A program made the position numbers and the translations under genes. Positions 10,701 to 61,274 of a stretch of DNA of 64,000 nt are shown piece by piece (position 1 is the stretch's first letter; every line of letters begins with the position of its first letter). The notes under the pieces are model-generated. The model made no database searches. It was given only the letters and a program-made list of their open reading frames with translations, and was not told the DNA's origin. This stretch comes from Tribonema minus (taxonomy: Eukaryota; Sar; Xanthophyceae; Tribonematales; Tribonemataceae). The stretch is from NCBI GenBank assembly GCA_017506865.1, contig JAFCMP010000157.1, positions 248,001 through 312,000 on the forward strand. Reading direction: 5' to 3'.

Positions 10701-11324
10701 ATCGCCGACGCAACAGCCACCGTCATCGTGCGCGCACGCGACGCTGAGCATACATGCGTAACTATCCTTGTGGCGCGCCTTCCTTGTGAAGGAGGCGATG
10801 TCTTCGCAAGTCGTCGGCGCCACGGCCATGCTTCAGTGAGCACATGCGCATCGCTGCTTTTGTGCGCGGCGCAGTCGCGATATCGCAGCGAAGAGTGTGG
10901 CATTGACACCATTCATTGGCCGCCATCATGTGTGTGCGCATTGCGCGGCGTTGCATAGTGCATGCCCCCCCCCCCCCCCCCCCCCCCGTGCAGCGGCTCG
11001 TGACCATGCCGCGGAAAAAGAGGAAAGCATAAAGCACACGCTCACCGTTGCGCGTGCGCACGGCGGTCACGGCGGCCGTGGCGCCGGCGGCGGAAACCGT
11101 GCTATGAGCACAGAGATCTTTGACGGTGACTGAGCCACACACTATCGCCAATCGCCGTTGCGCCCACGCACCATGCAGCTCAGCGCCACGCGCGCTTACT
11201 ATGAGGCTGGGGCTGTTGCGTGCGCCCAGGACTGTCGTATAGGCACCATGAGGTGTCGCATCAACAGCACCTGCGCGCACAGCTGCCTCAATAACATGCC
11301 CCTTCTCATCGCTTCGCGATCGCT

Positions 11325-27282: not shown

Positions 27283-27362
27283 GCAACCCTAATCCTAATC
27301 CTGATCCTAACCCTACGCCAACCCTTACCCTAATTCTAACCCCAATCCTAACCCTAATTCAG
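27283..27362 (+). repeat. Degenerate CCCTAA-like tract
   Basis: Repeats of CCTAATCCTAATCCTGATCC and CCTAACCCTACGCC type, a decayed telomere-like array. Downstream, TTCAATTGGCTACTTCAA repeats lie at 27655-27790. Confidence 0.8.
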
Positions 27363-38192: not shown

Positions 38193-38224
38193 GTTAGGGT
38201 TAGGGTTAGGGTTAGGGTTAGGGT
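38193..38224 (+). repeat. Interstitial telomere-like (TTAGGG)n
   Basis: Five perfect TTAGGG units, followed within 10 bp by a retrotransposon-tail-like word (TTTTTTGCGCCCTAAGC). Confidence 0.97.
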
Positions 38225-38319
38225 CAGGCTTTTTTGCGCCCTAAGCAAAGTTTCAAAGTCGTCAAGTACAGTGCTAATGAGAAGTGCAGTAGCACGGTTC
38301 ACAGATCAGAGGTGCACAC

Positions 38320-43500: not shown

Positions 43501-46500
43501 TCATGCTCGATCATGGAAAACCTGAACACAGATTCATCGATGATAGCATTAAGATGATGATGCCCTCACGTTCGATCATTGACCACACGCCCCCCCCCCC
43601 CTCCCCCTTCCCCCCTCCCTCCCCTTCGCCCCCCCCTCCTTCGCCCCCCCCCCCCCCCCCCTCCCTCTCCACCAGGACTCTCGCAGCAGCTCTCCAACAT
43701 CGAGGCCAGCACCCCCTACCACATCTTCGCCTACATCTGGCTGCCAAGCGACTCAAAGTGCGCGCTCGCGAGCGACAACGTGCAGTGCCCCTTCCTGTCG
43801 GTGCTCTCCGACGGTTACAGCGTGGGCGGCGGGAACCTTCTCAGCGCCGTCCCGGGGGCGTGGAACGCGGTTTCGGGCGCGTTCTTCGTCAACGCGCAGC
43901 AGGCGCGCGGGCGGATCGCGTTCAGCGTCACGCGGCTGACGCCGGGGGAGAAGGTGGGTAGGTATGGCGGAGCTGCGCAGCATACCCCCTAGATGAAGTG
44001 CGGGCGCATTTGAAGGTTCAAGGTGGTGATCCAGCAGGTTCCATGCGCGGGGCAGATCGCGCTCGGCGTCACGCGGCTGACGCCGGGGGAGAAGTGGGTA
44101 GGTATGGTATGGTGCTGAGCATCAGCAGCGCATCATACCCCTCAGGTGGGAGATGAAGTGGGGGCACCTTTGAAGTTTCAAGGTAGGCAGGCAGGTATGG
44201 TGGTGCGGAGCATCAGCAGCGCGTCATGTTTTTTAAAGACAGGGCAAATTTGAAGTTTGGAAGTTAGTGACCTGGCTTTTTTCAGGTGCGAGGCTTCGCG
44301 TGTGATTCGCGCGTGTAGGTATGGTGGTGCTGAGCATCAGCAGCCCACACCCCTCAGATGGAGTTTTCGAAACAGGGGGCACGTTTGAAGGTTGAAGTTG
44401 GTGCTCTGGCAGGTTCCATGCGCAGGGCAGGGTTTTGCGTGTGGTTCGAGCGATCGCGCGCGTTGGCTTGTGCAACCAAGTACGAGACGGTTCTTGAACA
44501 GCAGCACACCTCACATCAACACGTCAAATTATACGCATATATATGTACTCTGGAACACGCACTACTGTGCGCTCGCGTCGATGATACGCTGGTCCAATTG
44601 CTCCAGCGTGCGCAGTCGCAACCTCAACGTGTCATTGACGTTTGTCAATGTTACTGATCACGGAAAATGTGGGCTCAAATCTGAGCAGGTATGCATACAA
44701 GTAGACGATGTCCTGGTACGGCGTTGATTGACCCCTGACCCAAAGCGCGATCTACTTCACTATCTTTGCTACTAGTACTCACAACATTGTGTGCTCGCAG
44801 TTGCTGGGCAGGTATATATTTGATGATGTGATGGTGCGACGCTCTGGCGTTCGCGACTTCCCTGATTGCTACATTGTCAGTGACATCTACAATAATGTAT
44901 GCTCAAATCTGATGGGTAGGTATGTATTGACAACGTCATGGTGCGGCGCTCCAGCGTGCGCCAGTTCATCCTTCATTCAACTCTCACTCATGCGCGACTT
45001 CATCGTTTGCTAAATTGTCACTAACATGCTTCTATGTATGCTTGGATCTGGTGGGTAGGTATGTATCGACGACGTCATGGTGCGGCGCTCCAGCGTGCAC
45101 GACTTCCCTGTTGCTAGATTGTTACTGACTTGTACAACAATGTATGCTAAAATCTAATGGGCAGGTATGTATCGACGACGTCATGGTGCGGCGCTCCAGC
45201 GTGCGCGACTTCGTTGTTGGCTAAATCTACACGTTGTTGGCCAAACTTCACTCTTCGCCCAACTCTTACCATGCACGTTGATTTGTGCTCAAATCTGGTG
45301 GGTAGGTATGTATTGACGACGTCATGGTGCGACGCTCCAGCGTGCGCGACTTCCGCGCGCCCAGCGACGCGCTCATCAACAGCAACCGCAAGCGCGACGT
45401 GACGCTCCGCATTGGTGAGCGCTGCTGCTGCTGCCATGCCATCAGATGCCTATTTGATCACATCACATCATAGGTGTCCATGTATGTATGCATTTCTGAT
45501 CTGATTAGATGTGTATGGTATTGTAAAGAAGAGAGAGGTACCGCGTATACGTTTGCTGAAGGATATCGAAGCAACCGCAAGCGCGGCGTGACACTCCGCA
45601 TAGGTAAGCGCTGCTGCGGCTGAATTCTTGCCATCAGATGCCTATCTATAAATACGTGTAGTGACCATAAAGTACAAGGGTATTTTGTGCGCGCTTGTTG
45701 AGCGTATCGCAGCAACCGCAAGCGCAACGTGACGCTCCGCATAGGCGAGCGCTGCTGCTGCTGACCATAGTAGACGTATCCTGAAGTATGCGCTTCTGGT
45801 TTGGCTACATTACACACTTCTATGAAGTACTTCGAAGTGCAGAAGTATAGGTTCTGCTCTTTGTATGTATGCGCTTGTTAAGGATGTTGCGCGCAATGCA
45901 GTGACACTCCGCATAGGTGAGCGCTGCTGCTGCTGAATCCCTCCCATCACAAACCCATTTGAGAACCTCAAAGCATGCACCTCTGATTTTCGATAACATC
46001 ACATAGACTTTGAAGTAAGTGAATTGTGTAGAAGTATAGAGTTGCTGTGTAGGCATTTGCTGAAGGATATTGAAGCAGCTGCAAGCGCGGCGTGACAAGT
46101 CAGGAGTTGAAGTCAGGAGTTAAAGTCAACCCAGGAGGAGGGCCAGATCATGCTACAAGCAGTTTGCAAGTAGGGTTTGGGTTAGGATTACTCGTGACGG
46201 TACTGTTGCCAATCACATTGTGTGGACCATTGGTGTATTGCCAATTCAGTCATGTGAACTTGTGATGATTGCGGCCCCCCGCATAAATGAGGATTACTCA
46301 GGACGGTGCTGTTGCCAATCACATTGTGTGAACCAGCGACGTGTTGCAGTGACGTGTTGCCAATCACATTGTGTGAACCAATCACATTGTGCAAACCAAT
46401 CATGTGTTACAAGATGTCACCCGCTGCTGACTCTTGCCAATCACATAGTGTGGACCAATGATGTGTTGCCAATCACATCGTGCGAACCAATGCTGATTGC

Positions 46501-47832
46501 CTCTCAGATAAAAGCGGCAACGCTTAGGAGCCCGTCAGAATCGTGCAAAACAGTACTGTTGCTAATCACACCCTGCAAGCCAGTGATGTGTTGCCAATCA
46601 CAACCTGTGAATTAATGCAATCAAATCATGTGACCCGATGCTGTGCAAACCAATGACGTGCTGTCAATCCCAGTGTGTGAACTTGTGATGAATGCAGCCT
46701 TCCAGGCAAAAGAGGATAACTCTTGACGGTGCTGTTGCAGATCGCATCGTGCAAACCAGCAACATGTTTCCAACCGCATCGTGCAGACACTTTTGCCGAT
46801 CACATTGTGCAAACCGATAACGTGTCGCCAATCACATTGTGCAGACCAATGACGTGGTGCCAATCACACGTGTGAACCGGTGATGATTGTGGCCTCTCAG
46901 GCAAAAGCGACACCTCTCAGGAGCCCGTCAGAATCGTGCAGAACAGGCTAGCGTTCCCCATCGGCTCGGTGCTGAAGCCGCGCGCGCTTGAAGGCGAGGG
47001 CGATGGCGCGCGCTACAGGTGGGTGTCGCTGTGTGAGCACTGACGCAGTCGCTTAAAGTTGATGATACTTGAAGTTGATGGCGATTGAAGTTGAGGCGAT
47101 GGCCCGCGCTATGGGTGACCGTCACTGCTGAAACTGACACAGGCACTTGATGATGGCAGTTGAAGTTGAGGGTGATGGCCTGCGCTACCGGTGAGCGTCA
47201 CTGCTGAAACTGACACAGGCACTTGGAGATGATGGCAGTTGAAGTTGATGGTGATTGAAGTTGGCCCGCGCTACAGGTGAGCATTGCTGCTGAGCAATGA
47301 CACGGGCAGTTGACGGACATTCATTAATGGCAGTTGTAGTTGATGGCGATTGAAGTTGAGGGCGATGGCGCGTGCGCGCCCAGGTGAGCGCCGCTGCTGA
47401 GCACTGACATGGGCGCTGTAAAGTTGATGGCGATTGAGCTCTCTGTAGCCGTAACCCTACGCGCGAGCGGCGCTGCGCAGCCCAGAGACGCGCGCAAGAG
47501 CTGGCAGCGACACGACTCGTTCATCCTGAGCTGCGCAGGGCGGGAAAGAGGGCCCTTAATTGAGCACTACTGTATGCGGGGTCAGGTTGCGGTTAGACAT
47601 AGTTGGGTCAGGGATATACATACTTCTAGTTCAAACCGAGACAATCGACCGTGCGCTCTGACTTTGTGTGCCTTGTTGACCAGCTTGTTTGTCCTAGTCG
47701 TATCACTTGATGACTCGATGATGAGGGTTGGGGTTAGAATGAGGATTAGGGTTAGAGCCAGAGTTGGGCCTAACCCTTCCTGACTTCATGCACGTCGCGA
47801 TCTCAATCTGAGTGGGAGACGAGCCTCCATTG

Positions 47833-47869
<37 letters not shown>

Positions 47870-50800
47870 TTCTATATTGTACTTGGTCTTGTCTGCGACC
47901 TCATGTTGTGTATATTGTACTTGGTCTTGTTTGCGACCTCGTGTTATGTATGCGACCTCAAGCACAGAAGCCTACTGTATTACCATGTACCTAATGTGCG
48001 CACATATACCTACCTCTGTATGCAACATCAAAAGCGCATTTCCGCCTCCTCAACCTCGTGCGCCGCACATGCAGGGCGTGCTTTGAGCAGAACTTCAACT
48101 ACTGCTCCGACGAGTACGAGATGAGCCAGGCGTTTTCTACATACCTATGTATGCAATCTCAAAACCACATTGCCGCCTCTTACATCTTGGGCCATGTGAA
48201 CACAGGGCGTTCTTCGAGCAGAACTTCAACTACTGCTCCGACGAGTACGAGATGAGCAAGGCGTGGGAGGACTACTACCTCAAGGGCCAGCCATGGCCGA
48301 CTCATGCAAGTTCAACATATTGTCTTGAAGTTGTGGTATTTGAACTCACCAGTATTCTTTTTGGCAGTTAGTTCTTCAAGCAGAACTTGAAACTATTTCT
48401 CCGACGAGTTCGAGATGAGCCAGGCGTGGGCGTACTACTACCTCAAGGGCCTGCCATGGCTGACTCATGCAAGTTCATCTTTGAAGTTGCCTTTACTTAT
48501 GCAAGTTCATCTTTGAAGTTGCTTTTACGCGTGTTTGCCTCAAGGGCCTGCCACGGGCGACTCATGCAAGTTCAACATACACGATTGAAGTTCAATAATA
48601 GTTGAATGTGCAATAATTGCTGTAGTTCCAAGATTATACCTCAATTGGCACCTGTTGTATCCCTTCGACTTCATCAAAGTTGATGTTTGGCGGATATTTT
48701 GGCATGCAATGGCTGAGCAGCTTGATGGAAGTTGATGTTATTTCTGGCAGTTCAGTTCAGCTGAAGTTGTTCTCGGCAGTGTGACATTGGGTCCCCTTAT
48801 GTCAAAGTTGAAGTTGCTCTTGGCACTTGGCACAAGTGGCATATTAGCGATCCCCGTTGAGATATGGCCCACCCAAGCAAGCTATTCCATTGGAGAATCT
48901 CCAAGTGTTTGGCACAAAATCGTTGGCAGTCTTGACATCAAATGGTGCTGGTCAAGAGCGGGCTGTTGCACGGTCTGCGTCCTCGCTGGTACTTCATACT
49001 TGAAGTACCTACTAAATGCCACGCTGCAGCCAGGCATGAAGTTGTGACATGAAGTATATGGCCTTGCTGCTTTTGCTACAATACTGCTACTTCGAAGTAC
49101 AGGATTCAGGGCCAGCACTGCCCCTCATGTTGACCTGTTCTTCACCTGATGTCAGACGCTTCGACGCACCGAGACACACGTGTCGGAGCTGCGACGCGTT
49201 GTCGCTTGCTGCTTCAACCTTCAAGTGGTGACGCTGCAGTCAGGCGTCAAGTCGTGACACTACTGCACCGCGGCCTGCGCGCTCACTGTCTTCAAGTTCA
49301 ACAACATCTTGAAGTTTAAGACGTGCGCGTGGCGCATGGGCTGACACACCCACCATCTACATCGGTGCGACGTGTTTGCAGATGGTTGACTACTGTAACT
49401 GCTCTGCTAGTAAACTTAAAAGTTGTGATGCTACTGCCACGGGGCGCAAAGTCAAGTTACAACGCTGCTGCCCCACCACGGGGCTCGTTTGCGCGGCCTA
49501 ATAGACACTGAAGTATTGGCTCTGCAAAGGCTCTGACCTGTTTGAACGGGTTAGAAAAAGTGGGCATGACCCAGGCGCTGACACATTCACTCTGCAACAA
49601 CTCTGGCGCGCTCAAATTGTGCAAAGTTCAAGCTGTGACGCTACTGCCATACCGCCACACGGCGGTTTCTTCAGGCACCTGACGCATCTTGGCTCACAAA
49701 ACTCTCACCTGATGAAACATCCGATTGGGAGTAAATGCATGACTCAGAAAAAAAATGCTTGAGTCAGGCGCTGACGCATATACTCCGCAACCAATCTGGC
49801 TCGCTCAAACCACTGGACAGATCTTGGATTACTGCGACTCCATAGGCCACGGCACAGGCGGCCACTGCCTGTCAAATTTCAAGTTGTGACGCTACTGCCA
49901 AACTGCCACACTGCAAGACCCTTGAGCACTGACGTATTCGCTGCCCAAAACTCTCACCTCCTGAAACCAACCAGAAAATGATGGCAAGACTCAGGCGCTG
50001 ACGCACACAACCTTGGCTTGTTCAAATCAATCAACAGATTTTGGATTACTGCGATTCCGTTGGCTACGGCACGCGCGGCCACTGCCTGTCTGGCGAACTG
50101 TCAGACTGGAACAACAACAAGGACATTTTGCTCGATCTCCCACGGGACGGCGGCGCGGGCAGTCTTCAAGAGGTGAGGGACAAAATGAAGGAAAAACGGG
50201 GTCAGGTTTTAACAGTTGATGTAGAGGAGTTGATTGGAGAGTCTCTCCCGGACTGGAATAACAACACGGATCTGCGGCGTGATGGCGGCGCGGGCAGTTC
50301 CTCAAGAGGTGAGAGACAAAACAAAACGGGGGTACGGTGAAGTTGAAGTAGAGATGTTTGAACCCTCTTGCACTGGAACAACAATGAAATTCTGCTCGAT
50401 GTTCTGCGCGACAGCGGCGCTGGCAGCCTTCAAGGGGTGAGAGAGACAGCGGAAAAGGGGTCTGGCCAAGTTGAAGTAGAACAGTTGAACTCTCTCGGAC
50501 TGGTAGTCACAAGGAATTTCTGCACGGCGGTGCGATCGGCCTTGAAGAGGTGAGAGACAAAACTGAAAACGCCCTCCCTTGCACCCAGCCCTAGTGTTGT
50601 GCGATTCCGTGCAGCGTTTCGTTGTCAACATGCTCCGTGTAGACCAATTTGAAATACGTGCATGGAGGTGTGTTGCGCCGTTGGAATAGCTTTCAAAATT
50701 TCTGCTGCGTGTCGGTCTCCTCCCGTGTGTGCAAATGCATCCTGCATGCTCGAGCTGCATGCAGTATACGACCCCCTAGTACACACCTTGTGGCTTTACC

Positions 50801-53800
50801 CCCTGTGCAGCGCAGGTGCGTCACCGTCGACGCATACACAACTCCTTGAAGTACGGGCGCTTTGAGATGTAAATAACTGGCCCCTGGAACATACCCTTGT
50901 GACTGAACGGCGTCACCATCCGGCAAAAAACAAACATGCTTTGAAGTATGCTGCTTTTGAAGTATGGCCCACAAGCAGTAACATGCATTGGTGTACTGGA
51001 AGGGCCAGTTCACGCACGCCCCCAAAACGCGTACCTGGTGACTTTGCCCCCTGTCCGTTCGCGCAGCTGTTGCTCAACCGTGTCACAATCGCGTCATGAA
51101 CCGGTATACATGCGCCATCTCATGAATACATACCCTTGTAAATTTGACCCCTGTCTCCTCGCGCAGCTGTTGCTGAACCGCGTCACAATCGCGTTAGCAA
51201 CCAGTATACATACGCCCCCTAATACATACCCTTGTGGCTTTGCCCCTGTCCCCGTGCGCGCAACTGATGCTCAACCGCGCCACAATCGCGTTATTTACCA
51301 GTATACATAAGCCCCCTAATATACATAAGCCCCCTAATACATACCCTTGTGGCTTTGCCTGCTATCCCCTCGTGCGCAGCTGATGCTCAACCGCGTCACC
51401 GTCTGGATGAACGCCTACAAAGGCAGAGTTAAGGACGTGGAGGTGATGAACGAGATGGTCAACTCACGCATGTGGCCCAAGCTCCTGCCGTGCAACGGCA
51501 AAGGCAAGTTCCATCATGAACTTGTGACAAACTTCAAAAACCAACATCAACTGGACTCCCCCTTACGCTCAGTAGTGTAGACTGTGGGCGAGGCGACAGT
51601 CTACAGGCGAGCGCCGATTTCAACCTGAGACACCCGTCTCCACACATTTTGCCTACATCGGAAGCATATACTTGTAGTGATTTAACGAAAGATGGCCAAC
51701 TCGCGCATGTGGCCTAAGCTCCTGCTGTGCAACCGGAAAGGCAAGTTCCAAACATGAACTTGTGATGAACTTCAACACATCTTTATCTTCCGGATGTTTT
51801 TTGATACTGCAGATTGTGTTCAATGGCAAAGGTCAGCTTCATTGCGAGCCAGACACGTTGCACCCCATCTTTCGCCTCAAAGCCTAGCAAAGTGCGTCGA
51901 CAGCCATTGGGGGGAGTTGGGAGGTTGCCATTGCTCTGTCTGGAGGTATGTTAATGCTTGTAGGCAGCAGAATGCTGCATTCGACAGGCTTATAAACGGA
52001 GCGTCAAGCGTCCAGATTGTTCCACTGCACCACTTAAACCTGGCGCTGATTGAGGGCGACGGTTGAGACAAAGTTGCCTACTGGATTTTGCTAGGGCCTG
52101 TTGTAACTGCCACAACTGCCGCAGTGCCTACCTACCTACCCACTACAACTAGTGTTGCCGCAGTACCTACCTATTGCAAGGGCACGCTAGTGTAACTGCT
52201 GCAAAGCCTGCCTACCTACCTACGCACTACGACTGGTGTAAGCGCGGCAGTGTAACCGTAACTGCTGCAGTACCTACCTACCCACTACGACCGCAAGGCT
52301 GCGCGCTCGGTCACATGCCGCTGCTGATGCAGTGCCTCAGTAGCTGGGATTGCCCGCTCATCACGACAGGCGACCTCAGGAAATGCCCCAAGAAATTAGG
52401 CAGTGCTCATATTGAGGGTAGGGGGGGGGGGGGGGAGAGTTTAATGATGTGATGACGTGTCTTCTGCACGGCAGCAGCGCAGTTCTTCAAGTACGTGACG
52501 TGCCACAGTGAATCATCCCAACAAGGGAGCGCGCCAGTGCAGTTCTGCAGAGGCTGCAGTGCCAAGGCTCACGCACTGCTGGTGCTGAACTTCAATGCAT
52601 GATGCTGTACTTCAACATGTGACACTCCCCCAGGCCCCTGCATCTGCGACCACAAGCCGGCCTGTCCAGACGACATCATTCCCAACAAGAAGATCAGCGT
52701 GCGAGCGTGGGCTCAGGCGTACGCCAAGTCCCTGGCGCCGAATGATAGAATGGTGATCAATGAGGTGAGTTGACTCTGGAGTTCTGAAGTTGGAAAATGA
52801 AGTTTGATGTTTTGTGGTGAAGTTGAAGCTTGGGTTTTTGGCTGCCGGAGTCCCTGGCGCCAAACGACAGGATGGTGATCAACAAGGTGAATGGCATGTG
52901 ACTGAGTGCAGCCGTGCAGTGATGTGTGATGTACGTATGCTAGCTAGGGCAAGGGGCGCAGGAGATTAGGGTTAGGGCTGCGCTTGTGAAGCGGCGGCGA
53001 ACCCTAACCCTAGGTGAAAGTGAGGGCTGCATGATACTTTATGACAACACCAACATGCAGCACTTACTGCGAATGCCAGGGTTAAGGTGAGGGTGAGGGT
53101 TAGGGTTAGGGTTAGGCACTCATATATGCATCGCCCGCCCTTTCAGTCAGTTGTTAGTCAGCGATGTCCCTACGTAACTCCCAGTTGTATCTTTTGACCT
53201 ACTCTTAGCCCAACGCTACTTACCTATCCGCGTTGTGGCCTTCCCACGACGACTGCATGCTGGGTGCCTTTGAGTGAGAGCGTTCAAGGTGTGCACTACT
53301 CTTGAAGTGCCCTCATCTCAAAGGGACAACACTATGTACAGCTTGAAAGCATTAGAATACTGCAAGCCGAGTCTCAGCCCTAGGGTCAGGATTAGCCACC
53401 AGTATACATACCCGACCCTGCCCCATCGCTGAACCTGTATTTTAGAATAAGTGGGGCCCAGTCAGTACGATATTCAAGCCTATCACTTGCTGTTGATACA
53501 TGCATACCCTATCCCTCCTGGTACCCCCACCTCACCTTACCCACTGTTCGCACAGTACTCCGTGATGAGCACGTGCCAGCAGTACGATGCCCAAGCCTAC
53601 CGCTTGCCACAAATGTAGACCACTCATACCTACCGCTTGCCACCAATATAGACTATACGTACCCCTCACAATGACCCCATGCCCGCTTGTGCAGTACTGC
53701 GTGATGAGCACATGCCAGCCGGAGCAGAGCAACACCAGCTCCTTCGTCAAGTTTGTGCGCGGGCTGAACCGCGCGAATGGGGGCGCCACCACCGCCGTTT

Positions 53801-56800
53801 CTGATCAGGTGCGTATGCAACATCAAGTATAGAAATATGTATCTTCAAGAAGTGCTTGATTTTGTTGAGACAAATGTAGATTCTGGTAGCCAGCTGGGCA
53901 TCTACCATCTGGCCTTTTTCACGCTTTTAAAATTGGGTATCAATTTTTTATAAAACTTCACTTCCAAACTTCTTGATTGATAAAACCTACTCAGAGCGCG
54001 AACAAGTCCTGATGGCTATGACGTCAAGCTCATGATCAGAGTCTACCTATGCCATCCGAAGATCGTTGACGATGACACTGAATGACATTGCCAAACGCCG
54101 CCCTGCCCCCCCCCCCCACACACACACACATACACACACTACATTCTTGACTCAATACTGGCCCCTTTTGGACTCCGCCATGTGTGTGTAATCACCTGCA
54201 AAGTGTATCCCAAAGTGTAAGCTGTGTGGATCAGGTCTGCAATTCACAGTATGAAAACAGCACAACAGGTCAGGTAGTAGCCCCAATTATACCCCTTGCA
54301 CGTATACTGCTTGCGGTTCTCTCGCGCCGCTGCCAAAAGTATGAAATCAGCACAACAGGTCAGGTAGCCCCAATCCTACCCCATTTTATTTAGCAAACAC
54401 GCGTATTGCGCATTAGGTCTGGCAGCCGCTTGGCAAAGTCGCGTTGACTCTGGTGTTTGAGAGTGAAGGGGAGCATCACCTCTGTAATTGCCATGCAGGT
54501 GCGGTTTCAGCATCACAAAGGTAGATGAGCACAGCACTTGGCACAGACATTTTGCGTGATATGCAACTTACGAAGGGCGCATACGGTATGTACGCGACTG
54601 AGGTCCACCACCTGCCCGGGTAGTGAGACCCGTGATGCAGACATGTTGTGGGGTGGGGTGCATTGTTTGTCCCGTCGAGTGTCTGCGCTTTCACGCACTT
54701 GAAGTAGTCGAAAGTGCAAGTACGATGGGTGCCGCTCACAATGGCTTGTGGCCCAGTACAATGTTCATTTGGTTGAGGCACTCTCTGCGAACCTTACGAT
54801 GCGGTGCAAGCCCCATGTACAAAAGACTCGCAGAGCCACAGTGGCCTCCATTTTCTTGTTTTGCATCCGCCATTTCCATCTCCTAATCTCTATTATTCAC
54901 AGCCATTTGGCGTGTATGCCTAGTCTTGTGGTACGTGACCATATGTGCCGCAGTGAAATCTAAAGGCTGAGCGCTGCTGCATGTTTACATGCGCTACTTA
55001 ACTACCCCCGGTGCGACCGCTTGGCCTCTATGCCTAGTGACAGAGCAGAGCTCAGCACATGTTGAGGTTGGTGCCTCGGTGCGCGTGTGACGTGCCACCT
55101 CAGACGCAGTTCGCAGCGCGTTCCCGATGCACTTGTGCTTGTTACTGACGCATGCTGTTGTGAGTTGTATCTGCCTCGCTGCTTGGTCTTTGAACTCTGG
55201 CACGGTGTCGGCGCTATGCGCTGTCAGCCTGGCTCTGTGATCTGTGAGTGTGAGTGTCGCAGTCAAATCTATTGCTGAGCGCTGCTGCACGTTTACATAC
55301 GCTACCTACCTAGCCCCTCTGTACGGCTTGTGATCATGACTTCAATCCACTGCTGCGCGCTGCCTCTATGTGTTGACATACCCTACGTACCCGCGCGCGT
55401 GCAGGGGCACGTGTTCCTGTGCTACAGCCAGTGCTGAGCGCTGCTGCTATATGTTGACAAACGCTACCTACCCGCGCGCGTGCAGGGGCACGTGTTTCTG
55501 GGCTACAGCCAGTGCTGATCGCTGCTGCTATGTGCTTACATACCCTACCTACCCGCGCGTATGCAGGGGCACGTGCTTCTGGCCTCACCCTAACCCAGAG
55601 CTACAGCCAGAGCTGAGCGCTGCTGCTATATGATTACATACCCTACCTACCCACGTTGCGTGCAGGGGCACGTGTTTCTGGGCTACAGCCAGTCGGGCTT
55701 CGACCTTATTCTCAAGATTGCATCGATCAAGAAGCAGCTGAACGGCATTGATTTCTGGGTGAGTGGATGTGCATACGATGTGTGCATTCCACACCTCTCA
55801 TAATAGTGCCTTCGAACGCTAAAAAACTTGCACACAGAAGTCTTTTGACCTGTGGATATGATGGCACTGTCTGACTCGTGGCCAATGACTGCAGCAGCGG
55901 CGACCACGGTTACTGGTGGAAGGCACTTGCGGCTAACCATCCCTTGTCACCTAGAGCTCTACGATCTTGTGACTCGTTTCCAATACTCAGAAGTAGTAAG
56001 CAAACAGGGAAGAGTGCAGCAAACTGAGTAGCGCTTTGTTGACAGTACAGCCTCAGCAAGATGCGGAGCGCTGCCAGTGCTATTTGCGCCGCCATTTTGC
56101 TGCATCGTGTCCCCTCACTGGCGTACTTGAAAGCACACGTGGGCATTTCACACCTCTCATGAGATTTTAAAAATGAAAACGTGCAGCAGACTGACAATTT
56201 CTTGAGGTATAGCCCCAGCAGAATGCGCCGCGCAGCTACCGTCATGCGCCTAATAAGGCCGACCGGACCAACATTTGAAGCGTCCAGGGCAGCGATCCTA
56301 ATTGTGGCTGGGCGTTTTTCTGGGTATTCCCGATTAGGCCTCGTGGCACATTTTCCGTGTCGACCTCAGTGTTGCCTGGCCCGATTTGTGGGTACATGAA
56401 CCGTAACGCCATAGCAGGCAAGCAGGTGGTGAGTGCCATGCTCACGGGTGTCCTGGTACTGGTGCACAGACTCTTTTTAGGCACACGATACGGCCTTCCC
56501 CCCGTTAACAACCTGTTTTTTCTCACGGGCTCTAAGCCAACTTCACCTGAAGGTTGAATTTTGTGCCGACTGCTGCAGCGAAGACACATCGCGCTCACGA
56601 CGGGGTCACTGCGTGCTCATTGGGGTGTTCCTGATGCTCCGTCTCAAGAAGGCCTGGTGCTGTTTTCGTGCGATCCCAAAGCAGTGCCCGAGTGCTTTAT
56701 TTGGCGATGCATGCGTAATGTTGGTCTGGCCGGCCTATTCAGGCACACGACGGTAGTGCCAGCTGCGCCGCCATGCTGCGGCATCGTGTACTGAGGTCAC

Positions 56801-59800
56801 TGGCGTACTTCAAATTGTGTACTTCAAGCATGGATCCTGGACAACAGAGCATTGAAAACAGCACGGTGTGTGCTTCTGTGCTCTTGCGAGCCAGTTGTAT
56901 CTGCAGCGAGTCCGTCCCATGTAGCTCAGCTTTGTGGCTGAATGCCCCTTCCCCCCCCCCCCCACCCCTTGCTCTCTCTGCGATGCAGATGCCTGTGCTC
57001 AGCTGTCAGGCTGACACCCCTCCCCGCTCTCTCTGCCGTGCAGATATCGGAGCTCGACGTGGCGGATCCCGATGAGAACGCACGTGCGGATGGCATAGAG
57101 CAAATGTGAGCCTACCCCTAACCCTAACCCCGATCTTGACCCTAACCCTATCCTGAGCCTTATCCCAAGGCTTACCCTAACCCTAACTCTGATGTGAGGG
57201 GAACCGCAACACTCTCATAGACGGGGCAGAATCAAAATTGACTGCGAAAGTGATAGTGCATGGTGCCGCCATCGCGCCAGAGGCGCACAGCCAAGCAGAC
57301 AAGCACACAAACTTACAAGCGCACGAGTTGCCACCGAGCAGAAGCGGATCAGTAATGCGATGCGAAACCTGTCTTAGGTGGCACGTCACTACCCCCCAAC
57401 CTCAACATGTGATGCACGTGCACCACAGGACTGAAATACTGAGCAGAATCAAATTTGACCACCTGCCTGCAGCCTGCGCGCGTACTTTGCGTGGCTGCGA
57501 CTCAGCCGCGCATTATCTCTTACTCTGAGTAGAAGTTATGTATGTCTGCCGCGCTGCTCTACATGCGCATACATATTGTCTCCTTCACAATACGAACAAC
57601 ACTACTCGTTTCTGTGTCGTGCCTGCAGCCTGCGAGCGCACTTTGCGTCGCCGCACCTCAGCAGCAGTTCTTCTGCTGCAGCCTGCAGGTCCATGTACTT
57701 CAAGGACCACTTCTCCCCCCTTCTGGCATTCATCTGTCAGCCGATTTGCCTATCTCTCTGCCACACCGCATGCATGCACATTGTTCCTTGAAAACAGCAC
57801 TTCGAATTGAGTTACCATTTTCTACTTCTCCGCCTGCCTGCAGCCAGCGCCCGTTGGGCCACGTTCTTTCTCCCTTCAAGTGATTATTTTCCTGCCACGA
57901 TGCTCTACAGTACATTACATGCTATGCGCATACATATTTGAAAAACACTACTTGTTTAAGTGTCTGCAGCCTGCGAGCGTTGGCGCCGCACATTCTTCCC
58001 CAGTCTAAGTACTTCAGAAACGCATATGTTTCTGCGATGCCTCTACATGCGCATACATTTTGTCTCCTTCACAGTGCGAACAACACTCCTCGTTTCTGTC
58101 TCGCTTCTGTGCCTGCAGCCTGAGTGCGCACTCTGCGTCGCCGCACCTCAGCAGCAGTGTTGTGCTGCAAACTTCAGGTCCATGTGCATGCACACTGTTT
58201 CTGTGAACAAAACCTCAAGTTGAAGTAATGTTTCCTACTTTTTGCGCTGCAGCCTGCAGGTCCTGGCACACACTGTGCATGCGCTTTGGCATCTGCAAAC
58301 AGAACTTTAAGTTGAAGTACTCTTTCTCTACTTCTGTGCCTGCCTGCAGCCTGCGCGCCTACTTTGCCTCGCCGCACCTCAATGGCGTCATCCTGTGGGG
58401 CTTCTGGGAGGGGGCTATCTTCAACCGCAACACGTGGCTCGTCAATCTCGGTCAGTGCCACTGCCCCCTTTGATCAGCACCAAGAACGCCACCCAAAGTG
58501 GTGTGACATGATCGTTTGCTAGCGGTTCTAGAATGCTTTGCTTAGGTTTAAGTGGCTTTGGTGTGAGGTGATGAAGAGCTTCTGTTGATGTGCAAATGCA
58601 ACACCTGGCTCAACCTCGGTCAGTGCCACCGCCCCCTTTAATCAGCGCCAAAACTGCCCCCCAAAGCGGCGCGACATGATCGTTTGACAGTGAATCTGAA
58701 GCGCCTCTCGTAACTTCAAGTGGTTTTGATGTGACGTGAAGAGCTTCTGTTGATGTTCAAACGTAACACCTGGCTCGTCAATCTCGGTCAGTGCCACCAC
58801 CCCCTTTAATCGGCAGCAGCATTAATACCCCCTCAAAGCGTCATGGAGATCCATTGCTGTGTGACATGATTGTTCGCTAGCGGATCTGAAGTGCTTCGCA
58901 TAGCTTTGGGTGATTTTGATATGGTGTGAAGAGCTTCTGTCAAAAAGTTCAACTTCAACACGTGGCTCGTCAATCTCGGTCAGTGCCACCGCCCCCTGTA
59001 ATTAGCGCCAAGAACACCCCCTAAAGCGATATGACATCATCATCTGCTAGTGGTGCTGGCATGCTTCGCGTAGTTTCAAGTGGCTTTGATGTGATGTGAT
59101 GAAGAGCTTCTGTTGATGTTCAAATGCAACACCTGGCTCGTCAATCTCGGTCAGAGCCACTGCCCCCTTTATCAGCGCCAATAATACCCCCCAAAGCGGC
59201 GTGACATGCTCATTCGCTAGCGGCTCTGGAATGTTTGCATAGTTTTGGGTGGTTCTGCTGTAATATGAAGAGCTGTTGGCGATGTTCAACTTCCGATGTT
59301 GTACCGCACAACACGTGGCTCGCCAATCTCGGTCAGTGCCACTGCCCTTTGACCAGCGCCATGAAGAGTTACTGCGGCGTGACATGATCGTTTGCCAGTG
59401 GATCTGAAGTACTTGCGCAGTTTCAAGCGGTTTTGGTTCAATGTACATGAGCTTTGTGTTGTACATGTCCAATCTCAACAGATGACAGTCGACAGTCGAC
59501 TTCGGTGAGTGTGTACCAAGATTAGATTGGGGCGTCATCGCACGTGTTTGGTTCGAATTTATCTCACACAACCTCCAACTGTTCTGCAACTGTTCTGGGG
59601 CACTGCAGCATGCGAATTTTCAAAGCGTTTGCTAAGCGCCGCAACTCACTGTTGCGGTGTAATTTACGCATCTGGCTGCAAATGGCAAATTCCAGCTGTA
59701 GTTGAAGTTATCTTCACTTCAAGAGATGACGTGCCGAGCTGGCCAGCTCTGGCCGGAGTGCATCTCCACGCCCTCCGTCACCATGGCAGAGCAAGCATGA

Positions 59801-61274
59801 ACAGCGTAGAAGCAGTCAACAAGGAGCGGACGCAGGAAATCGAAGCAGTAGTTCAGCAACGTAGTGCTCTCAGCACTGGTGGACGCAACCCACCACCGAA
59901 CCTCTGCGTTGCCCGGAGTCTACATGTCAGGAAACTGCGACAGGTAGTGACAGTGATGCAGGTGTACTCCCATGCACGCCCGTACACTCCCGTGTACTTG
60001 TGTACTCCAATGTACTCCCATGTACAGACGAACGTCAGCACTGCCAGATGTCACGCAATGCCGCATCCCTGCCCTGTTGTAATGTGCGTCAACGCGTACC
60101 ATAAGTATTGGTGCCGCATAACTAAAAGCCTTCTTACAGCAGCCCCCCTCGGTGATGTATCTTCGATATGCAGACTGGACGTTGAATGCGGCGGGGGAGC
60201 GGTTATTCGGCAAGGACGGCCTGTTGAGCAACAAGTGGAAGACACAAGTGAATGCCACCGTCAACACAAAGGTGCGCCTCAGCCTGCCCGATAATTGTGC
60301 CTTGTGCAGCGTCCAAACACAACATTTGAGTGTGTTCGCTCCTCAGTACAGTGATGCATCGCATTGTTTCCCCCCCCCCCCTCCCCCCCTCCCCTGTACC
60401 CCCAAGTTGGCCTGCCACACACGGACCTCATGTAGAAATTGCGGTTCTGTTGAAAGTGAATGTGGTCCCATCGCGGTACGGCGCACTTGAAGCGAATGCT
60501 GCGCACACTGTAGCTGCGTGCATGTTGCGCTGGACGGTGCCTCTTTCTAGATAGTGTAGGATGCTAGATATACCCATATACATGCTTCAAGTACTTCCGA
60601 AGAATAGTGCACAAGTGCACTGATGGTATCATTACAGTCGTCCGCCATCTCTGAAGCACTGCTGCGCCCGCATTTAGATCAGCAAGGCCCTCAAGTTCAA
60701 CACGCCAATGCATGCATATAACCTCACTTCCGTTCCGCAGAGCGGCGCCGATGCCATCGTGTTTTGCGGCTTCCTCGCGACAACATGGCCCACCTCTTTG
60801 CAGCATTGGTGCGACCGAAAATAGCGATCATCAAGGCCCTCAATTTCAACATACCAATATCATACATACAACATTGAATATACTTCGAAGTACTTCAAGT
60901 TATGACTTCAACTTTTGTTCCGCAGAACGGCGCCGACGCCGTCGCAGTCCGCGGCTTCCACGGCAACAACGTGCCCCACCCCTTGGAAGCACTGGTGCGA
61001 CCGAAAATGGCGATCACCCAGGCCCTCGAGTTCACCATACCAATATACATGCAACACACCAATGTATATATACAAGTACATGACTTAAACTCCTGTTCCG
61101 CAGAATGGCGCCGACAACGTCAAGTTCCGCGGCTTTCACGGCGACTACGTGGCCTACTTTGGACAGGACGACAGGTGCTCCACCAGATTCACGGTGCCAG
61201 AGGGCAGGGCGCCTATCGCCATACGCACCAGCGGCTGGCGGTGTAAGTTCGGCTCGCCGCCGGATGATGCCTGA
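40511..61274 (+). CDS. Secreted GH10 endo-1,4-beta-xylanase with N-terminal carbohydrate-binding module (14 exons)
   Basis: Exons: 40511-40733, 43676-43953, 45306-45414, 46901-47018, 48206-48305, 50038-50172, 51380-51503, 52634-52764, 53695-53808, 55666-55758, 57044-57105, 58350-58450, 60174-60271, 61104-61274. They total 1857 nt, 618 residues plus TGA, and all phases agree. Residues 1-27 are a signal peptide (LAMLVAGAAGAAAASAP). About 30-180 is a CBM of the CBM22/CBM4_9 type (NLLDNPGFESGLKKW ... YHIFAYIWL ... VCIDDVMVR). NRKRDVTLRI opens the GH10 barrel, followed by FFEQNFNYCSDEYEMSKAW, RGHCLSGE (His291), VEVMNEMV (acid/base Glu346), ISELDVADPDENARADG (nucleophile Glu478), NGVILWGFWEG and VKFRGFHGDYVAYF. 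This is the architecture of plant GH10 xylanases, which cut xylan outside the cell. Start: ATG in AAAAATGC. Introns 5 and 7 start with GC; the rest are GT-AG. Confidence 0.93.
40750..41899 (+). repeat. 575-bp near-identical tandem duplication in GH10 intron 1
   Basis: Sequence starting ATATTGCCATGCTTCACG at about 40751 recurs from about 41327 at an offset of 575-576. Only a few substitutions and one single-base deletion were seen, so it is recent. The 107-codon frames at 40838 and 41413 are twin by-products. Confidence 0.95.
41144..42204. mobile_element. Inverted-repeat pair, possible foldback or TIR element remnant
   Basis: CGTATTATCTATTATTAAGC followed by CCATGGGGCAAG (41144-41175, again in the tandem copy at 41719-41750) is inverted at 42173-42204 (CTCGCCCCATGGGC ... 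ATAGATAATACG). The nearby GGGGCGCCATTAAC/AAAAAGG and AAAAATAAGGGTGGGGCGTC stretches also pair. The original element would be about 0.5 kb (41719-42204), with its left end copied by the 575-bp duplication. Confidence 0.55.
42347..42476 (+). repeat. Two-unit 65-bp tandem repeat
   Basis: CCGTGCAAGCATATACGTG ... GATGTCAAGCTGCAGGA is repeated once with few changes. Confidence 0.9.
42880..43105 (+). repeat. Dispersed 220-bp repeat family, copy 1
   Basis: CACATGTTGAGGGTGGGGTG ... GACGTGCGACCTCTGAG ... TCTGGCACGGTGGTGGCGCC and ATGCGCTGTCA align with 55050-55260 (plus) and 57185-57415 (minus). The copies are diverged by roughly a quarter by eye. Confidence 0.75.
43240..43475 (+). repeat. Interstitial telomere-like repeats with a head-to-head junction
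   Basis: TTAGGG units at 43243-43262, then a larger array at 43413-43462 that flips directly into CCCTAACCCTAA at 43463-43475 (GGGTTAGCCCTAACC). The two strands face each other as in a fused pair of telomere ends. It lies in GH10 intron 1. Confidence 0.9.
43588..43675 (+). promoter_or_regulatory. 88-bp C-rich polypyrimidine tract and acceptor before GH10 exon 2
   Basis: Almost purely C/T sequence ending CTCTCCACCAG at the exon 2 boundary. It is far longer than a usual polypyrimidine tract. Confidence 0.8.
43905..44110 (+). repeat. Donor-side exon-edge echo, GH10 exon 2
   Basis: GCGTCACGCGGCTGACGCCG and the following GGGGAGAA|GTGGGTAGGTATGG at about 44060-44105 repeats the exon 2 end and donor (43930-43968). 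Fainter echoes of the intron part (GGTATGGTGGTGC..AGCATCAGCAGC) follow to about 44470. Confidence 0.88.
44689..45305 (+). repeat. Five acceptor-side exon-edge echoes, GH10 exon 3
   Basis: Echo exon starts at 44689, 44812, 44920, 45059 and 45165 precede the real one at 45306. Each has AG|GTATGTATTGACGACGTC-type sequence and some of GTGCGGCGCTCCAGCGTGCG, then decays into intron. Spacing is 106-141 bp. All keep an AG acceptor. Confidence 0.93.
45560..46100 (+). repeat. Donor-side exon-edge echoes, GH10 exon 3
   Basis: AGCAACCGCAAGCGCG.CGTG ACRCTCCGCAT followed by GTGAGCGCTGCTGCTG or a variant recurs with edges near 45603, 45745 and 45918, plus a remnant at 46070-46097. The real edge is 45414. 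Donor forms are GTAAGC, GCGAGC and GTGAGC. Confidence 0.9.
46190..46900 (+). repeat. Minisatellite (CCAATCACATTGTG) and acceptor-side echoes, GH10 exon 4
   Basis: GCCAATCACATTGTGTGAAC and ACCAATGACGTGTTG alternate in some 15 units. Echoes of the exon 4 start (CTCAG|GCAAAAGCG ... GAGCCCGTCAGAATCGTGCA) lie at about 46506-46548 and partly at 46702. The real exon starts at 46901. Confidence 0.88.
47080..47400 (+). repeat. Four donor-side exon-edge echoes, GH10 exon 4
   Basis: GAGGGCGATGGCGCGCGCTA(CAG|GTG) recurs with donors at 47115, 47191, 47277 and 47384 (real: 47019). Each is followed by GTGAGCGTCACTGCTGA-like sequence and separated by TTGAAGTTGATGGCGATTG words. Confidence 0.9.
47832..47864 (+). 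repeat. (CA)n microsatellite
   Basis: About 16 CA units in GH10 intron 4. Confidence 0.95.
48055..48600 (+). repeat. Exon-edge echoes on both sides of GH10 exon 5
   Basis: A truncated copy (CAG|GGCGTGCTTTGAGCAGAACT ... GAGATGAGCCAGGCG) sits at 48079-48132. A copy at about 48372-48480 extends to GGCTGACTCAT|GCAAGTTC. Two shorter donor copies (CTTATGCAAGTTC, CGACTCATGCAAGTTC) follow near 48497 and 48562. All donor copies carry GC rather than GT. Confidence 0.9.
49560..50037 (+). repeat. Intron tandem units with acceptor-side echo, GH10 exon 6
   Basis: CAGGCGCTGACGCA..A..CTC.GCAAC...TCTGGC units recur at about 49570, 49767 and 49993. One carries an echo of the exon 6 start at about 49819 (CAG|ATCTTGGATTACTGCGACTC ... 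GGCCACTGCCTGTC). Confidence 0.85.
50240..50560 (+). repeat. Three donor-side exon-edge echoes, GH10 exon 6
   Basis: GACTGGAACAACAACA ... GCGGCGCGGGCAGTCTTCAA followed by GAG|GTGAGAGACA recurs with donors near 50309, 50437 and 50550 (real: 50173). Spacing is 113-136 bp. Confidence 0.9.
50790..51379 (+). repeat. Four acceptor-side exon-edge echoes, GH10 exon 7
   Basis: CTTGTGGCTTTGCCCCCTGT ... GCGCAG|CTGTTGCTCAACCGTGTCAC echoes start near 51067, 51167 and 51264 (the last with AA instead of AG), with a remnant near 50810. The real start is 51380. Spacing is about 100 bp. Confidence 0.9.
51688..51840 (+). repeat. Donor-side exon-edge echo, GH10 exon 7
   Basis: GATGGCCAACTCGCGCATGT ... CAACCGGAAAG|GCAAGTTCC repeats the exon 7 end and its GC donor. 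A weaker one (TTCAATGGCAAAG|GTCAGCTTC) lies at about 51818. Confidence 0.85.
52095..52300 (+). repeat. CCTACCTACC minisatellite, about 70-bp units
   Basis: Units of GC(C/A)GCAGT(A/G)CCTACCTACC ... ACTAC(A/G)ACT(A/G)GTGT recur three or four times in GH10 intron 7. Confidence 0.85.
52845..52900 (+). repeat. Donor-side exon-edge echo, GH10 exon 8
   Basis: GAGTCCCTGGCGCCAAACGA and the following CAGGATGGTGATCAACAAG|GTGAATGG repeats the exon 8 end at 52727-52771. Confidence 0.88.
52960..53118 (+). repeat. Telomere-like words in both orientations (GH10 intron 8)
   Basis: TTAGGGTTAGGG (52966), CCCTAACCCTAGG (53001) and GTTAGGGTTAGGGTTAGG (53098-53116). Confidence 0.85.
53540..53694 (+). repeat. Acceptor-side exon-edge echo, GH10 exon 9
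   Basis: CGCACAGTACTCCGTGATGA and the following GCACGTGCCAGCAG at about 53549-53583 copies the exon 9 start (GTGCAG|TACTGCGTGATGAGCACATG). Confidence 0.85.
53880..54110. repeat. Retrotransposon-tail-like fragments, plus then minus
   Basis: TGGGCATCTACCATCTGGCC and the following TTTTTCACGC (about 53905) is plus-sense. GACATTGCCAAACGCC (about 54085) matches the other end in minus sense. Two degenerate copies facing each other are possible. Confidence 0.45.
55050..55260 (+). repeat. Dispersed 220-bp repeat family, copy 2
   Basis: CACATGTTGAGGTTGGTGCC ... GACGTGCCACCTCAGACGCA ... TCTGGCACGGTGTCGGCGCT and ATGCGCTGTCA. It is flanked on both sides by CTGAGCGCTGCTGCA.GTTTA words (54968, 55275). Confidence 0.78.
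55390..55665 (+). repeat. Three acceptor-side exon-edge echoes, GH10 exon 10
   Basis: CCTACCTACCCGCGCGCGTG ... CAG|GGGCACGTGTTTCTGGGCTA with CAGCCAG recurs with exon starts at 55405, 55486 and 55567 (real: 55666). Units of 81-99 bp each then run into TGCTGAGCGCTGCTGCTAT. All three keep CAG. Confidence 0.95.
55893..55985 (+). repeat. Dispersed repeat copy 3
   Basis: CGGCGACCACGGTTACTGGT and the following GGAAGGCACTTGCGGCTAAC ... AGAGCTCTACGATCTTGTGA match 37640-37735, and in reverse 7300-7362. It lies in GH10 intron 10. Confidence 0.75.
57115..57190 (+). repeat. CCCTAA-type tract just after GH10 exon 11
   Basis: CCTAACCCTAACCCCGATC and CCTAACCCTATCCTGAGC style degenerate telomere-like units. 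Confidence 0.85.
57185..57415 (-). repeat. Dispersed 220-bp repeat family, copy 3
   Basis: On the minus strand: CACATGTTGAGGTTGGGGGG ... GACGTGCCACCTAAGAC ... CCTCTGGCGCGATGGCGGCA and CCATGCACTATCA. Confidence 0.72.
57460..58349 (+). repeat. Six acceptor-side exon-edge echoes, GH10 exon 12
   Basis: (TG)CCTGCAG|CCTGCGCGC.TACTTTGCGT-type edges begin at 57473, 57629, 57844, 57970, 58119 and 58253; the real one is at 58350. Two extend into TCGCCGCACCTCA. The intervening intron sequence (TGCGCATACAT.TTGTCTCCT) also repeats. Confidence 0.93.
58451..59345 (+). repeat. Five donor-side exon-edge echoes, GH10 exon 12
   Basis: CAACACCTGGCTCGTCAATC and the following TCG|GTCAGTGCCACCGCCCC recurs with donors at 58619, 58787, 58979, 59150 and 59332 (real: 58451). 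Spacing is 168-192 bp, and all keep GTCAG. The units also share GACATGATCGTTTGCTAG and GAAGAGCTTCTGTTGATG. Confidence 0.95.
60725..61103 (+). repeat. Two acceptor-side exon-edge echoes, GH10 exon 14
   Basis: TTCCGCAG|AGCGGCGCCGATGCCATCGT (60741) and TTCCGCAG|AACGGCGCCGACGCCGTCGC (60926) precede the real start (61104). They reach 50-60 nt into the exon and stay largely translatable (GADAVAVRGFHGN against GADNVKFRGFHGD). Confidence 0.93.

Follow-up and report, generated by a model that had tools for sequence, protein, structure and literature searches.

Direct copies of exon edges are anchored on splice junctions in introns of Tribonema minus genes

Introns of a GH10 xylanase gene of Tribonema minus carry direct copies of the neighbouring exon edge together with its splice site. 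Clusters of these copies, here called echoes, reach exon junctions more often than random placement predicts. The pattern recurs in many of the genes sampled, some of them housekeeping genes; these include myosin and chaperonin genes and a second gene of the window. On average the echoes decay as neutral DNA. The window is the whole stretch of 64,000 nucleotides that was analysed, bases 248001-312000 of contig C157 in an assembly of 158 Mb and 554 contigs.

The GH10 gene and its echoes

The xylanase gene lies at 40.5-61.3 kb of the window and has 14 exons and a 1857-nt coding sequence with an unbroken frame, a model that was checked against homologues. Its spliced product matches PF00331 with 47.2 bits against a cut-off of 22.1 and is most similar to a EukProt transcript, at 52% identity, and to a Tribonema minus protein, at 49%. 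The protein used in the PF00331 and relative searches had exon 13 starting at 60129 and hence carried 15 surplus residues; this acceptor is ruled out by alignment to a homologue (P0001), which sets the start at 60174. In the following list, exons come from the gene model, with the start of exon 13 taken from the alignment to P0001, and arrays were located by self-BLAST and junction probes unless stated otherwise.

40511..40733, + strand, exon 1; donor without echo
43676..43953, + strand, exon 2
43900..44452, + strand, exon 2 donor array; 54 exon bp per unit, period 142
44781..45354, + strand, exon 3 acceptor array; 4 echoes, 142-495 bp away
45306..45414, + strand, exon 3
45380..46097, + strand, exon 3 donor array; 3 echoes
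46184..46946, + strand, exon 4 acceptor array; 3 echoes
46901..47018, + strand, exon 4
46984..47437, + strand, exon 4 donor array; 4 echoes
48007..48592, + strand, exon 5 flanks; 1 acceptor and 2 donor echoes
48206..48305, + strand, exon 5; GC donor GCAAGT
49553..50090, + strand, exon 6 acceptor array; 1 junction-spanning echo
50038..50172, + strand, exon 6
50113..50571, + strand, exon 6 donor array; 3 echoes
51005..51399, + strand, exon 7 acceptor array; period 100, 3 echoes
51380..51503, + strand, exon 7; GC donor GCAAGT
51453..51775, + strand, exon 7 donor echo; GC retained, copies separated by an unmatched spacer
52634..52764, + strand, exon 8
52727..52890, + strand, exon 8 donor echo
53553..53719, + strand, exon 9 acceptor, short echo; self-BLAST, missed by the junction probes
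53695..53808, + strand, exon 9
54945..55693, + strand, exon 10 acceptor array; period 81, 3 echoes
55666..55758, + strand, exon 10
57044..57105, + strand, exon 11
57462..58381, + strand, exon 12 acceptor array; 4 echoes
58350..58450, + strand, exon 12
58417..59437, + strand, exon 12 donor array; 5 echoes, spacing 168-192
60174..60271, + strand, exon 13; both sides without echo
60648..61157, + strand, exon 14 acceptor array; 2 echoes
61104..61274, + strand, exon 14

Junction probes that take in at most 60 bases of exon and 60 of intron about each of the 26 internal junctions find 44 direct echoes at 18 junctions, in agreement with the count of about 45 in the initial annotation. Two of the 44 are weak (E9D, with 65% identity, and E11A, with 12 exon bases), and the probes are negative at E1D, E2A, E8A, E9A, E10D, E11D, E13A, and E13D. 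At stricter BLAST thresholds a repeat copy crosses 15 of the 26 internal junctions. The regular spacing and the general retention of splice dinucleotides that had been claimed both hold. Echoes are spaced 81 bp apart at exon 10, about 100 bp at exon 7, 106-142 bp at exon 3, and 168-192 bp after exon 12. AG, GT, or GC is present in 42 of the 44: AG in 20 of the 22 acceptor echoes, and GT (18) or GC (4) in all 22 donor echoes. The further claim that copies decay with distance from the junction fails as a general rule. Among the nine GH10 arrays with at least three copies, five rank correlations are negative and four positive, with a mean rho of -0.15.

Copies have diverged by several to 30 per cent and run head to tail at regular intervals in direct orientation, as in ordinary tandem-repeat arrays. 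Near-range repeats number 70 direct to 1 inverted in the GH10 gene and 292 direct to 0 inverted in 33 other loci. Arrays cover 0.46 of the GH10 gene.

The introns with donor GCAAGT at 48305 and 51503 are of the GC-AG type, and the GC is kept in three of the four echoes at exons 5 and 7.

Anchoring on exon junctions

Self-BLAST of the GH10 gene gives 22 near-range repeat clusters, 16 of which reach a junction; with at least 100 matched bases, 13 of 14 do so. Counted per intron, 17 of 23 clusters are anchored, compared with 4.5 ± 1.7 (maximum 11 in 4000 draws) when clusters are placed at random within their own introns and allowed to extend up to 60 bp into the exon. Six array-rich genes with 34 introns have 36 of 47 clusters anchored against 14.0 ± 2.5 at random, an expectation that rises to 18.4 ± 2.7 if intrusion of up to 100 bp is permitted. 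For clusters of at least 200 bp in these genes the figures are 33 of 37 against 11.7 ± 2.3. The six were selected as array-rich from eleven (the GH10 gene and ten modelled genes), the other five being array-poor. Introns were used where both boundaries were confident HMM-to-HMM boundaries, assigned by a scoring script and repaired by hand in two cases, and C457 and L050-L053 stand outside the modelled-gene set.

A test of 34 loci without preselection of rich genes gives the same direction. Under circular shifts, 84 of 149 clusters reach an exon edge against 48.8 ± 4.6 expected (maximum 63 in 2000), and the number of touched edges is 86 against 67.1 ± 6.4 (maximum 88). Edges in this test are those of HMM cores, or of exact exons for the GH10 gene, and exons that the HMM misses go uncounted, such as the one at the donor-echo junction of L050; C190 has two clusters. 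Seven loci contained in longer stretches were dropped (L018, L020, L024, L025, L027, L029, and L034), and 2 of 56 chaperonin matches (C135:208473 and C51:22169) were excluded as repeats of their neighbours. The matches at C5:353415 and C51:21979 are echoes themselves; they were removed from the 34-locus counts and the codon-position set and are still counted as exons in the covariate and single-locus p tests. In both placement tests array location depends on gene structure, unlike that of ordinary tandem repeats.

Other measures are weaker. The GH10 gene alone has 17 of 28 edges touched under circular shifts against 15.0 expected (p 0.31), with 16 touching clusters against 9.0, and by touched edges no single locus, the GH10 gene included, reaches p 0.05. 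Rotation of the coverage mask gives a weak excess of 21 crossed junctions against 16.7 ± 2.4 (maximum 24). A peak of repeat density at junctions is true of the GH10 gene, where coverage falls from about 0.6 within 200 bp to 0.35-0.37 at distances over 400 bp. It fails in the six pooled array-rich genes, where coverage stays approximately flat, at 0.34-0.53 between 60 bp on the exon side and 1000 bp on the intron side. The initial annotation had described the repeats as centred on junctions; this stands for the anchoring of clusters, which exceeds both random placement and simulation, but not for pooled coverage with distance. Arrays are also less dense outside the gene in the stretches compared. 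Coverage is 0.14, 0.20, and 0.03 in three arbitrary 9.9-kb stretches and 0.08-0.17 in 1-40 kb of the window, against 0.46 in the gene; these stretches are unannotated, so the comparison bears only in part on whether arrays are equally common in intergenic DNA.

Anatomy and divergence of the echoes

The modelled genes yielded 30 anchored arrays for measurement. Their units take 19-139 bp (median 47.5) from the exon, never more than 46% of its length; the E5A echo, outside this set, includes at least 59 of 100 exon bases. The period has a median of 170 bp and falls at 80-260 bp in 27 of the 30. Full units make up 17 of the arrays, and 13 have partial units with an unmatched spacer between copies. 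Six introns hold both kinds of echo, and in all of them every echo of the upstream exon lies nearer the donor than any echo of the downstream exon.

The divergence of echoes from their exons at codon positions 1, 2, and 3 is 11.4, 7.4, and 15.4% for 41 GH10 echoes and 9.1, 6.8, and 14.3% for 111 echoes from 20 other loci. Gaps occur in the exon part of 6 of the 41 and 43 of the 111. On the assumption that position 2 of the exon barely changes, the age of the echoes comes to about 7%, and the excess at position 3 reflects synonymous substitution in the exon. The echo branch would then be young, about 7% decayed, and retention of AG and GT needs no special cause because the echoes are young. As read from these sequences, the divergence fits, on average, neutral decay of the echo together with a synonymously drifting exon. 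The pooled codon positions give no sign of coding constraint on echoes, and the idea that they are in general conserved coding copies is rejected on this ground.

One array departs from this picture. Four echoes in the donor array of L052 (6013-6785) have 0/222, 3/222, and 37/228 differences at codon positions 1, 2, and 3, summed over six copy pairs that are not independent. They vary almost only at third positions, as if each had once been coding, whereas neutral decay predicts otherwise. E3A, with 0.09, 0.06, and 0.27 at the three positions, is a less clear exception.

Recurrence and heterogeneity in other genes

A scan of other genes found junction arrays again in myosin, chaperonin, and Ssb-like OB-fold genes. 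The last of these is the second gene of the window.

9973..10763, + strand, Ssb-like OB fold (PF21473); exon at about 10303-10418 with acceptor- and donor-side echoes, next exon near 11363; self-BLAST, by eye

Part of the Ssb-like gene, searched against PDB, gave no clear match. Many of the myosin and GH10-paralogue loci have arrays that reach exon cores, and no arrays were found at C357, C312, C71, C509, C401, C527, C501, and C57. The Cpn60_TCP1 chaperonin family comprises ten gene loci in our grouping. Six are loaded with arrays (L047, L048, L049, L051, L052, and L053), and in L048 all nine clusters touch a core. Three are nearly array-free (L044 with 3 clusters, L046 with 1, and L050 with 2), and L045 is free of them.

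Echoes accompany 78 of the 276 core edges in the 34 loci. Twelve loci, L050 among them, have no echoed core edge, and ten have no cluster at all. The spread from locus to locus is far over binomial (chi2 88, df 33, p 7e-7). The paralogues L050 and L052 have common boundaries in the stretches compared; arrays occur there in L052 only, and the L050 introns are shorter. At one exon end of L052 a unit of about 162 bp stands in five copies (exon included), and another of its exons is preceded by several acceptor echoes. The one donor echo of L050, near 3795-3857, lies outside the junctions compared with L052.

Across loci, array load has no correlation with intron GC and a weak one with intron CpG observed/expected (rho 0.36, p 0.04). 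It is correlated with mean intron length (rho 0.51, p 0.002), a figure that is inflated because arrays lengthen introns and missed exons add length. Median intron length in the five array-poor genes is 262-957 bp.

In the kinesin family, 3 extra partial HMM matches among 134 are placed immediately beyond an exon and repeat its edge (C246:701357, C511:562024, and C479:315317); judged by their coordinates, they are probably echoes.

Simulations and the origin of the echoes

Forward simulations combined uniform tandem duplication, rejection of exon-breaking events, and point mutation, and were analysed with the identical detection pipeline. Residual and 100- or 200-bp starting lengths had 12 replicates per setting, while 350- and 500-bp starts, long growth, and exon-breakpoint settings had 14. 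The real GH10 gene, with 16 of 22 clusters anchored (73%), was compared with all of them. Uniform duplication anchors 28% and 25% of clusters from residual intron lengths. Introns of 350 and 500 bp at the start give 44% and 35%, and prolonged growth from 100 bp gives 23% and 29%. When an exon breakpoint is imposed on 70% or 90% of events, 62% and 84% are anchored at coverage 0.51-0.53, and 18.4 and 20.8 of 26 edges are echoed, somewhat above the real 15. These uniform simulations are too low and the exon-breakpoint ones are near the real gene, and we therefore infer from simulation a bias of duplication breakpoints to the exon side.

The explanation that we favour, and to which we give an even chance, is that short direct duplications with one exon breakpoint are frequent, are tolerated at the boundary by splicing, and then undergo array growth and neutral decay. 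The initial event would be a short direct tandem duplication running between a breakpoint inside the exon (19-139 bp from the edge in the 30 arrays measured) and a second breakpoint in the intron. Selection would remove duplications within exons, and those crossing a boundary would survive, the spare copy of the exon edge leaving with the spliced intron. Such copies would be tolerated because the splice site adjoining the exon body stays in use; presumably this site is the one chosen. Some units would expand into regular arrays, and the spare copies would decay as non-coding DNA. Candidate causes of breakpoints at exons are exon-positioned nucleosomes, transcription-linked breaks, and GC-rich exon DNA. 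Counting against this explanation are the flat pooled coverage, the weak result of mask rotation, and the p of 0.31 for the GH10 gene alone. The partial units of 13 of the 30 arrays also count against it, since plain slippage yields no such spacers, as do the strong heterogeneity of loci (chi2 88, df 33) and the third-position array of L052.

It is possible, if somewhat doubtful, that a lineage-specific mutational process tied to boundaries recurrently duplicates the exon edge and splice site in tandem, through exon-phased chromatin or through breaks linked to transcription and splicing. Boundary-anchored duplication would then be one of the main ways in which introns lengthen, active in some genes and missing from others.

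Templated insertion during break repair, in which a junction-spanning segment is copied nearby with filler (X-filler-X) rather than duplicated by slippage, is unlikely as a general source, and it is a serious alternative for the 13 arrays with partial units. Four two-copy cases seen by eye, three in L040 and one in L039, have copies 90-95% identical around unrelated spacers of 60-134 bp. This reading is weakened because inverted copies, which it also predicts, are nearly absent (none to 292 direct copies in 33 loci, one to 70 in the GH10 gene). The full units of 17 of the 30 arrays also oppose it, and the high-identity BLAST pieces favour the exon part.

Introns may instead have been very short, 100-200 bp, at the onset of duplication, so that nearly all tolerated duplications crossed a junction. 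We consider this quite unlikely. Simulations from 100 and 200 bp do resemble the GH10 gene in anchoring (79-80%) and in echoed edges (about 15 of 26), but their coverage is 84-86% against the real 46%, and prolonged growth with array decay drops anchoring to 23-29%. Further evidence against a short start comes from the array-poor genes, whose median introns are 262-957 bp, and from the non-array stretches of introns 5 and 12, for which no second copy was found in a search that skipped very common words and does not prove uniqueness. Intron 10, by contrast, contains the two dispersed repeats described below.

Uniform neutral duplication of intron DNA, better detected near conserved exons and giving junction arrays by chance overlap with edges, is improbable. 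It agrees with the flat pooled coverage, the weak mask-rotation excess, and the neutral decay of echoes on average. Against it, simulations that include detection anchor 23-44% of clusters at coverage 0.35-0.64, with 0.65 in the highest replicate, whereas at coverage 0.46 the real gene has 16 of 22 anchored, and 14 of 16 for clusters of at least 200 bp.

Echoes could be functional, as decoys or alternative exon ends under selection. The splice dinucleotides in 42 of 44 echoes, the third-position pattern of the L052 donor array, and the E3A values (0.09/0.06/0.27) would suit such a role. The neutral decay of the pooled set, the gaps in the exon parts (6/41 in the GH10 gene, 43/111 elsewhere), and the lack of any echo in several myosin and chaperonin loci make it very improbable. 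A misassembly, or DNA of two organisms mixed together, would match the all-or-none distribution of arrays among loci and has a practically negligible probability: copies have diverged by several to 30 per cent, ten chaperonin loci are about one eukaryote's number, and base composition overlaps. A mixture is rejected on this gene count and on contig C279, which carries one loaded and one nearly array-free gene.

Relation to known processes

Intron lengthening is mostly credited to mobile elements. Introners, which are dispersed mobile introns without exon sequence, are a source of introns in algae and protists. Echoes resemble introners in supplying intron sequence and differ in being local copies of the adjoining exon edge. 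Second copies of two array-free GH10 intron stretches (951 and 731 bp) were not found in a search that skipped very common words and does not establish their rarity. Intronic minisatellites have a regular period, head-to-tail order, neutral decay, and growth in copy number. Echoes share all of these features; they differ in being anchored on exon edges beyond random expectation, at many junctions of a gene and with different units.

Two described routes of intron gain are closer. In tandem genomic duplication, an exonic AGGT segment is doubled and a new intron lies between the copies, according to PMC3443670 and, for Drosophila cases, PMC2891723; these papers also describe intron gain in break repair. 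Tandem genomic duplication as presented there resembles the echoes in that exon DNA is duplicated over a short distance and the redundant copy is spliced out. It differs in that the echo unit spans an existing junction and lengthens introns instead of creating them. The AGGT-type hallmark, with the start of the downstream exon at the 5' end of the intron or the end of the upstream exon at the 3' end, was found in none of 26 comparisons within 150 bp of GH10 intron ends. Insertion during double-strand-break repair likewise places direct repeats around inserted DNA, which suits the X-filler-X cases. The repeats there are short and flank a new intron, whereas echoes are longer repeats that include the splice site, sit within introns already present, and are often arrayed.

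The initial annotation had proposed a junction-centred mode of intron growth that matched no named process. Anchoring beyond random placement and simulation, recurrence in other genes, and the contrast between array-poor L050 and L052 support the first part. The second was too strong a claim, as tandem genomic duplication, reviewed in PMC3443670, closely resembles short tandem duplication whose spare copy is removed by splicing. Among the open-licence papers listed, judged by title and the start of the abstract, no description of junction-anchored arrays was recognised.

Echoes are fossils of exons, about 7% decayed on average, that mark lengthening steps at known junctions of conserved genes. 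The process can therefore be dated and its breakpoints mapped. If duplication is indeed targeted to boundaries, mutation is linked to gene structure, and the arrays are natural tests of how the spliceosome chooses among near-identical tandem splice sites.

Other features of the window

Intron 10 contains two dispersed repeats. One, at 56237-56755, is an element of about 520 bp with terminal inverted repeats of about 39 bp and has copies of 73-80% identity on many contigs. The other, at 55807-55982, is about 175 bp long, with genome copies up to 95% identical and similar sequences in L049, L052, and L053. Mobile elements account for part of intron 10; none turned up in the array-free stretches of introns 5 and 12 in the search that skipped very common words. 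On the - strand, 29804-34003 is an open frame of 1399 codons that includes a reverse transcriptase domain (PF00078). Intron 1 has a 575-bp tandem duplication at 40748-41897 that is 99.65% identical and clear of exons. Interstitial telomere-like AGGGTT/CCCTAA tracts occur in introns and elsewhere (43414-43463, 53078-53116, 38193-38228, and 27288-27358). Between 11.3 and 28.5 kb, long GC-rich trinucleotide tracts give alanine- and arginine-rich frames on both strands.
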